DNA of 64,000 bases, from contig DVJB01000028.1 in NCBI GenBank assembly GCA_018710845.1, positions 62,001 through 126,000 of the forward strand, written 5' to 3'. This DNA is from Candidatus Onthomonas avicola. GTDB lineage: Bacteria > Bacillota > Clostridia > Oscillospirales > Oscillospiraceae. Under the pieces are notes generated by a model. The model searched no databases. It was not told the origin of the DNA and worked only from the letters and a program-made list of their open reading frames with translations. The position numbers and the translations under genes are program-made. Within the stretch, counting starts at the first letter, position 1, and each line of letters begins with the position of its first letter. Below, piece after piece: positions 7,068-8,879 of the stretch.

Positions 7068-7817
7068 TCAAAATTCAAAGCTGGAGAACAGCTTGACGTG
7101 CGGGTTGCTGCGTTCGGCGCGGCGGATCCGGTCGCGGTACGGCTCGGTGCACGGCAGGGCATAGAAGCGGTCAATGACGTCCTCCTGATCCCAGAAGTGC
7201 ATGGGATAGGCCTCGTCCGTGTCCGTCAGGCGCATGAAATAGTCAAACCCTTTGTAGTAATCCTCTTCCTGACGCGGGTCGATGGGGAGGAAGGCCACGT
7301 CGAAATGCCGTCCGCGCAGCGGCTCCAGGATCTCCTGAAAGCGCCGGGTGATGGAGAGATTCCACTGCTCCGTATCCCGCGGCCAGAGCCAGAGATGCAG
7401 GTCTCCGGCGTGATAGATGGTCTTCCCCTCTGTTTGGACGATAAAGGCCACGCCCTCGTCGGTGGAGGGGAGCGTCTCCACATCGAGGTCCTGAATGTGG
7501 TACTGCCGGCCAGGCGCGACAAAGCGGAACGCCTCGTATTCTGCGTCCGTGACGCCCAGGCAGCGCAGCGTGGTCCGGCTGTAGCGCCGCTCAATATCGT
7601 CTGAGAGGACGAAGGTGACGGACGGATGCCCCCGAAAGAGCGGGAAGAGCATCGGGCTGAAGTGATCGCCGTGGTGGTGGCTGATAAAGACATAGAGTGG
7701 CTTGGTGAAGTCGAAGGTGGGCAGCGTGCCGCGGCAGTAGTCAAACAGCAGCGCGCAGTGCTCCAATTCCACGTAAAATCCGCTGTGTCCGATGTAAGTG
7801 ATATTCATAGTCATCAC
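7068..7817 (-). CDS. MBL-fold metallohydrolase
   Basis: 249 aa; MNITYIGHSGFYVELEHCALLFDY..., FISHHHGDHFSPM (HxHxDH), IYHAGDLHLW. Confidence 0.92.
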   Translation of the reverse strand: MMTMNITYIGHSGFYVELEHCALLFDYCRGTLPTFDFTKPLYVFISHHHGDHFSPMLFPLFRGHPSVTFVLSDDIERRYSRTTLRCLGVTDAEYEAFRFVAPGRQYHIQDLDVETLPSTDEGVAFIVQTEGKTIYHAGDLHLWLWPRDTEQWNLSITRRFQEILEPLRGRHFDVAFLPIDPRQEEDYYKGFDYFMRLTDTDEAYPMHFWDQEDVIDRFYALPCTEPYRDRIRRAERSNPHVKLFSSFEF

Positions 7818-7832: not shown

Positions 7833-8393
7833 TTAATCGGGCCATATCTGATGATACAGGCGCCAGTACTCTTGCCAGGCGGGCGCTGCGCCGAGCGGCT
7901 CAAACAGCTCGCCCATCTGCCGGTAATACCAGGCGTGCGCCTGTGGGTCGGTCTCGTGGAAGCGGGTCCAGAGCGCCGGGCCGAGCGCCTGATGGGCCTG
8001 GAAGATCGAGCGGAGGTTGGAGAGCTTATCGCCCATTGCGACGATGAGGGCATCCCGGCTGCCGTGCGCGCGCAGACGCGCGACCGCCTCCTCCTTGCGC
8101 CGCCGCCAGGTGGCGGCAGGGGGGAGGGCGCGGTATTTCTCCTCCGTCTCCGCCTCTACCAGGCCGGCAATCCGCGCCCCAAACTGTGCGCGCAGCGTCT
8201 CGGCTGAGGTGTTGGTGTCCTCCAGTACGTCGTGCAGCACGGCCGCGGAAAGCACTTCCAGGTCGTCCGTCAGCGTCGCGGCGATGGCGGCCGCCTCCAG
8301 CGGATGGAGAATGTAGGGGGTTCCGCTTCCCTTGCGCACGGCGCCGCTGTGCGCCTGGGTGGCGAAGACGATCGCCCGGTCGAGGATGGTCAT
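7833..8393 (-). CDS. Small HD-domain protein (SpoT/MESH1-like phosphohydrolase)
   Basis: ATQAHSGAVRKGSGTPYILHPLEAA, AAVLHDVLEDT and MGDKLSNLRSI; HD hydrolase module without synthetase. Confidence 0.88.
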   Translation of the reverse strand: MTILDRAIVFATQAHSGAVRKGSGTPYILHPLEAAAIAATLTDDLEVLSAAVLHDVLEDTNTSAETLRAQFGARIAGLVEAETEEKYRALPPAATWRRRKEEAVARLRAHGSRDALIVAMGDKLSNLRSIFQAHQALGPALWTRFHETDPQAHAWYYRQMGELFEPLGAAPAWQEYWRLYHQIWPD

Positions 8394-8449
8394 CGGTGTA
8401 CCGGCTCCTTCTGTCTGTCCATGCGAGGTGAGAACGGGATGATGGGATA

Positions 8450-8772
8450 CGGAGCTTGCAAAGCGCGACCCCTATCCAACTCCGTTGTGGATAGGGGTCA
8501 GCGCTCTGAACTCTTGGTATCTAACATCCGTTGTTTACCTCGCTTTCCTAGATTTGTGAGTCCCGAACCCTTTGACTGACAACGTCACCACACTTACCTG
8601 CCGCAACAATTTGACATCCTCGGTGATGTCCGTCCCCACATGGGATAATTGCCGGAAGCACGGAATTCGTTCCGCCATTCAAAAGCTCACACCGGTTCGG
8701 AGAACTGCTCCGTTCTCCTCGGGATTGCAATCCTCTGATTAATTTGTCCTTGAATCACCCTTCCTTTTGGAT
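8450..8772 (-). ncRNA. Candidate structured non-coding RNA; class not assigned (raiA-type is one untested possibility)
   Basis: Minus-strand promoter at 8779-8807, no supported ORF, several inverted repeats (8699-8718, 8661-8674, 8613-8630, 8601-8611 with 8647-8655) and a long 3' hairpin at about 8463-8506. Confidence 0.7.
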
Positions 8773-8778
8773 GGCATT

Positions 8779-8807
8779 ATCATAGCACGGCCCTCCTCTT
8801 TTGTCAA
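8779..8807 (-). promoter_or_regulatory. Sigma-A promoter driving the ncRNA candidate
   Basis: Minus strand TTGACA (8807-8802), 17-nt spacer, TATGAT (8784-8779). Confidence 0.8.
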
Positions 8808-8879
8808 GTAGTTTTAGGCATAAATTTTCAAAAACAGGGACGAAAAATGTCAACGGTGACACCGTCGCATCAGGACAAA

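Follow-up and report, generated by a model that had tools for sequence, protein, structure and literature searches.

The element on the minus strand at positions 8807-8458 of the window (the whole stretch of 64,000 nucleotides analysed here) is, by sequence comparison, a copy of a family unlisted so far and widespread in gut and rumen Clostridia. Such comparison also showed the promoter architecture of this family, its helices, and the reading frame and amino-acid constraint of a conserved micro-ORF (ORF2). With confidence evenly divided, its members are regarded as stand-alone small RNAs, folded as well as translated, on which ribosome traffic over ORF2 would tune termination or 3’-end protection and which would act in trans. 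The original prediction of a promoter-driven structured RNA outside the known classes was borne out for the promoter, most of the helices and the novelty (no relevant Rfam match, covariation, homologues across the order). Its assumption of a purely non-coding transcript is contradicted, because the conserved 3’ half consists of a ribosome binding site and a micro-ORF ending in the terminator stem; the statement that no ORF was supported was thus wrong, a conserved ORF of nine codons being found at 8527-8498.

The predicted sigma-70 promoter (8779..8807, minus strand) was confirmed as near-consensus (11/12 positions), with the -35 box TTGACA at 8807-8802, a spacer of 17 nucleotides, the -10 box TATGAT at 8784-8779 with an extended -10 TG, and a predicted start near 8772, from which an RNA of ~310 nt would be transcribed. 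Two promoter-like sites were counted in the window region versus 0.2 in shuffled sequences, and the orthologues were found to be preceded by the same promoter (TTGACAAAAG..TGCTATNAT). The promoter is followed by AAAGGAAGGGTGATTCAA (8750..8767), a remnant of a 5’ minigene leader from which the start codon is gone, and by the hairpin P0 (8699..8718), after which come the folded middle domain (8555..8691) and the Shine-Dalgarno (SD) site of ORF2 (AAAGCGAGG, 8538..8546), which is near-invariant among 55 diverse homologues. ORF2 itself (ATGTTAGATACCAAGAGTTCAGAGCGCTGA, 8498..8527) encodes MLDTKSSER*; the segment reads AAAGCGAGGTAAACAACGG-ATG TTA GAT ACC AAG AGT TCA GAG CGC TGA, with the terminator arm directly 3’ of it. 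A possible hairpin, AUCUAG/UUAGAU (8519..8554), would place the ribosome binding site and start codon of ORF2 in its loop; it is 94.4% paired in nine orthologues and mostly invariant, and is weak family-wide. All of these features lie on the minus strand.

The terminal hairpin that had been proposed was upheld at 8505-8462, with the ORF2 stop codon TGA in its 5’ arm, although in the window copy only TTT follows it. For this reason the window hairpin is not a canonical intrinsic terminator, and it was not listed by the sequence scan that called the promoter; the U-tract is strong in most homologues. The window RNA was calculated to be more stable than its shuffles (z -2.8, 1/100), an excess partly due to this hairpin. 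Across the family, all 18 terminator pairs showed double changes, with 96.2% of pairs formed and the covariation equalled in 0/500 shuffles. The stop codon lies within the stem and its partner changes along with it, the combinations being TGA/ACT (72), TAA/ATT (53) and TAG/ATC or GTC (11).

Covariation was also present in the middle domain, where 93.9% of cells were paired with nine double-change pairs, and where the covariation score among nine orthologues of the window locus was 0.228 versus 0.111 for shuffles (0/500), a comparison resting on few and related sequences whose relatedness inflates the shuffle test. Sliding the pairing partners by 1-3 columns reduced pairing to 30-44% in these nine orthologues. 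The helices found to covary were P0, P1 and P4. P0, which had been noted as ggagaac/gttctcc (8718-8699), was checked sequence by sequence, and each orthologue forms its own hairpin there with a differing sequence. P4, noted as gacatc/gatgtc (8630-8613), is supported by double changes. The enclosing helix P1 (UGUGAG-CUUUUGA / UCAAAG..CUCACA, 8691-8679 with 8575-8555) had been overlooked. At the site of the suggested caatt/aattg pairing a helix does exist, but the better reading of it is CCG(G)CAA/UUGCGG (P2, 8655-8649 with 8606-8601), which is invariant in the nine orthologues and without covariation evidence. The middle domain further contains P3 (8645-8634), while the proposed cggaa-cgaa-ttccg hairpin is not kept in the orthologues. 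Between subfamilies the middle domain differs strongly in length and sequence and is not alignable family-wide; an automatic alignment of it in a distant subfamily gave a consensus of one hairpin and nothing beyond.

Several lines of evidence support ORF2 as a coding sequence. Among homologues it comprises 8-10 codons, is preceded by a strong SD site and has its stop codon in the 5’ arm of the terminator. In 163 copies found with a search pattern that left the end of the ORF free, the first stop of frame 0 lay directly before the C-rich arm in 162, the counts for the two remaining frames being 0 and 2. ORF2 was present in 95/95 hits of a covariance model, with interchangeable starts (ATG 79, TTG 14, GTG 2) and stops (TGA 52, TAA 34, TAG 9). 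Single-step differences in codons 2-5 were synonymous in 11/21 pairs versus 4.9 expected, and replacements within the consensus M-[LVI]-[DE]-x-[KQ]... are conservative (for example, MLDIK.. to MVEIQ..). Distant peptides such as MLDIKNSEK, MVEIQNQK, MIEPKHFEK and those of the MLDFK type differ in nucleotides while keeping their amino-acid character. Frame, start and stop interchange, conservative replacement and compensated stop-codon pairs thus point to a coding ORF2. Because the U-rich 3’ arm base-pairs with the final codons of ORF2 (CAG/GAG-AAA-stop), the terminator in part determines how the peptide ends, and the C-terminal [QE]-K may reflect a pairing need and not a function of the peptide; the M-[LVI]-[DE]-x-[KQ] start is free of this constraint.

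The first five residues of ORF2 (MLDIK, MLDTK) coincide with those with which seryl-tRNA synthetase usually begins (in this genome, MLDIKFVRDNPE). An origin from a serS leader was considered and rejected, as the region upstream of serS in the same genome has no evident similarity beyond the SD; for the same reason the likeness is probably a coincidence.

Regarding the range of the family, a DNA search of 98 relatives returned orthologues within the genus, another copy in the genome of the window and short family-wide matches, which were mostly centred on one segment corresponding to the ribosome binding site and micro-ORF. A pattern search found this segment in 26/151 family genomes, and a pattern search of GTDB genomes gave at least 120 stretches which, among the matches listed, were nearly all from Oscillospiraceae or other Clostridia. 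A covariance model of the 3’ module (R1, built on 55 sequences) identified the element at a strict threshold in 70/201 family genomes (30/72 genera), and in 70/398 genomes of the order (33 genera, many families of the order) and 11/291 other genomes of a class sample. At a more sensitive setting it was found in 32/32 genomes of the genus of the window. Prevalence beyond the genus is probably underestimated, as R1 derives from one subfamily and stricter filters were applied to the large sets. R1 scores near 30 bits are unreliable alone, and the assignment of distant members rests on minigene, SD, ORF2 and hairpin jointly. Weak matches in 2/40 phylum-wide genomes (E 0.003-0.006) were taken as chance, and a weak match at locus L219 was dropped, the SD and ORF being absent.

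Genomes were found to carry 1-7 copies, tandem arrays included. One locus (L213; G246:C56:17500-23500) contains five tandem copies on the same strand within about 3 kb; the middle domains of these copies differ, and several have their own divergent hairpin unit. The second copy in the genome of the window (L025; G000:C20:99230-99337) has a longer 5’ minigene, MWREAAFR*, and the ORF2 MMLDIKNHR*, and neighbours what we take to be a GIY-YIG-type gene. A complete copy was identified in the human gut isolate Vescimonas fastidiosa MM35 (L338:2497-2603), between a TetR gene and spoVAC, in a region where nothing is annotated. One match was located on an 861-kb secondary replicon. A mobile or repeat element was considered and rejected, as there were 0 matches in viral contigs and 0 in phages, and synteny is kept within the genus.

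Two further components, both missing from the window copy, were identified among relatives. One is a 5’ minigene, consisting of AGAAAGGGTGATACCAATG followed by one or two codons and a stop, in 133 among 244 copies. It is 2-3 codons long in 107/133 (MYR 34, MY 15, MG 5, others), and a frequent sequence is ATG-TAC-AGG-TAA with a strong SD. Members such as L166, L175 and L235 carry two or more consecutive minigene-like units (SD-ATG-2 codons-stop) before the folded domain. The other is a divergent second promoter, present in 67/150 copies with enough upstream sequence (~45%), with the form TTGAC[AT]-17-TATAAT-5 nt and leading directly into TGTTGGG, a hairpin and, in most cases, a T-run (for example, L213, L151 and L338). 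In the 8-kb loci 56 occurrences of this unit lay no more than 800 bp from the element, compared with two elsewhere, in 686 kb. Its classification as a general promoter type was rejected, as outside the element the promoter pattern mostly precedes ordinary genes or tRNAs. In almost all resolved cases the distance from -35 to -35 is 65-66, 74-76 or 85-86 bp, in steps of about one helical turn, and conserved TTTCTGTGTTTTGCACAA and TTTGTACAAnnTTCCATC lie between the promoters, with the sites TTGCACAA/TTGTACAA. This phased spacing, along with the conserved intervening sites, suggests that a single DNA-binding regulator acts on both promoters. For the predicted tiny divergent UGUUGGG RNA there was no cognate-specific pairing to the main RNA, with duplex energies no better than those of non-cognate pairs, and its candidacy as a cognate antisense RNA was rejected.

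Among the alternatives to be weighed, a known non-coding class has a negligible probability. The element shares its general look with such RNAs (intergenic, structured and promoter-driven), and the raiA motif and 6S RNA, to which it had been likened, are also intergenic structured RNAs of Clostridia. However, the Rfam check gave no relevant match, either for the window or among 38 homologous loci: nothing in the entire window matched Rfam 15 at gathering thresholds, a permissive search gave a single irrelevant sub-threshold match near the element, and raiA motif, 6S, T-box, tmRNA, RNase P and SRP RNA were unmatched in both sets. At the thresholds used, membership is thereby refuted for every family in Rfam 15, and the lack of a match holds for homologues family-wide. 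The likeness to raiA or 6S was thus not sustained, the element having no covariance-model match to them and a different anatomy, while the earlier failure to match it to RNase P, tmRNA, SRP RNA or a T-box was corroborated. That the element attenuates the downstream gene (in the window, a hydrolase gene) by means of a leader peptide is highly improbable. Attenuators of the Erm, Cat and Trp type have a short leader ORF with its own SD and an end overlapping the terminator hairpin, as does the element, and a short ORF overlapping an intrinsic terminator is found across the family, with the end of ORF2 inside it. For an attenuator, however, the downstream gene is expected to be co-directional in nearly 100% of cases, whereas, at loci where both neighbours were called, 64 co-directional genes stand against 74 convergent ones, orientations that rest on crude gene calling, and family-wide the flanking genes include no conserved neighbour family. 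Attenuation was rejected as the general role of the family on these grounds, and random downstream orientation without a conserved neighbour argues for a stand-alone transcript, in multicopy units with no linked downstream gene. In the window the gene order is tsf, the element, the hydrolase and a metallo-beta-lactamase-fold protein (7071-7817), an order kept within part of the genus. The hydrolase gene (7836-8393, minus strand) is close and co-directional and encodes a protein with a domain of the HD_4 type (Pfam PF13328), as found in SpoT-like (p)ppGpp hydrolases. As the locus is syntenic in this genus and its hairpin is without a proper U-tract there, the HD_4 operon may be influenced locally in cis.

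A micro-gene whose product is the peptide itself, an 8-10-residue cytoplasmic or exported molecule with leader, minigene and promoter controlling only its synthesis, is a possible but doubtful explanation. The amino-acid constraint (L/V/I at position 2, D/E at 3, K/Q at 5), the alternative start codons and the strong SD agree with it; against it, the C-terminal half of ORF2 is variable and partly dictated by terminator pairing, a signal sequence is absent, and a simple mRNA leader would not need a folded domain that covaries. Translation of very short ORFs can also sequester tRNA or ribosomes, as with the lambda bar minigenes and CreT, and the element could be a toxin-like RNA of this kind restrained by the tiny divergent RNA or by a DNA-binding regulator; we consider this unlikely. 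The 2-3-codon 5’ minigenes with strong SDs, often ATG-TAC-AGG-TAA, and the predicted divergent companion RNA at many loci would suit such a toxin, and CreT of CreTA is likewise a small RNA with a mini-ORF, which depends on tandem rare codons and a stem-loop in addition to a strong SD and an efficient start codon (PMC8501985). However, the second minigene codon is commonly TAC or GGC, which are not rare, the minigenes are mostly MYR, MY and MG, and ORF2 has no tandem rare codons after its SD and is conserved as amino acids. Among the flanking genes, which include no conserved neighbour family, no CRISPR link of the kind known for CreTA was seen, and the window copy has no minigene. The missing cognate-specific pairing of the tiny RNA stands against this reading and sets the element apart from type I toxin-antitoxin systems. 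Minigene mg2 of axe-txe acts in cis and was not toxic (PMC8708949). Many members resemble leader minigenes (axe-txe mg2, the ler leader and lambda bar) in their SD-driven 2-3-codon 5’ ORFs, but in the family what follows these is a folded domain with another micro-ORF after it, not a protein gene. Architecturally, by the comparisons made here, the family appears new, combining a stand-alone RNA, a micro-ORF stop codon within its own terminator, a 5’ minigene and a divergent hairpin RNA with phased promoters, and it fits none of the known families compared. Dual-function small RNAs (SgrS/SgrT, SR1/SR1P, RNAIII/Hld) are folded, stand-alone, terminated RNAs with a small ORF; the element resembles them, by comparison only, in carrying a translated small ORF in such an RNA, and differs in its far shorter ORF of 8-10 codons and in the stop codon built into the terminator.

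The preferred explanation, a stand-alone RNA both folded and translated, may be outlined as follows, with transcription itself, the interplay of ribosome and terminator and the action in trans being what we infer. The promoter would give rise to a short RNA of about 150-400 nt which, in full-length members, carries a minigene (SD-AUG-1 or 2 codons-stop), a variable folded domain, a strong SD and the 8-10-codon ORF2. As the stop and last codons pair with the 3’ end of the RNA, a ribosome could finish ORF2 only by opening the terminator stem at its base. Ribosome traffic along ORF2, with the folded domain and, in many relatives, the 5’ minigene as gates, would tune termination or 3’-end protection, such that the amount of RNA reports the state of translation, and the RNA, the nonapeptide or both would then act in trans. 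More tentatively, and as a less probable proposal, the whole may form a new RNA cassette in which divergent, phased promoters drive the tiny UGUUGGG-hairpin RNA and an RNA with two mini-ORFs and a stop in its own terminator, and in which micro-ORF ribosome occupancy, and not a downstream gene, is sensed and reported in trans.

A large set of candidate RNAs from human microbiomes, which may include this motif without a name, is described in PMC8040213. If confirmed, the family would represent a widespread, undescribed gene family of gut and rumen Clostridia, missed by protein annotation (its ORFs having 2-10 codons) and by Rfam. Should the element prove to act on targets through base pairing, it would join the dual-function small RNAs as a novel type. 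Its layout is that of a leader-peptide attenuator without a gene to control, which raises the matter of what role a stand-alone ribosome-sensing terminator may have, and the complete copy in V. fastidiosa MM35 makes that role testable.
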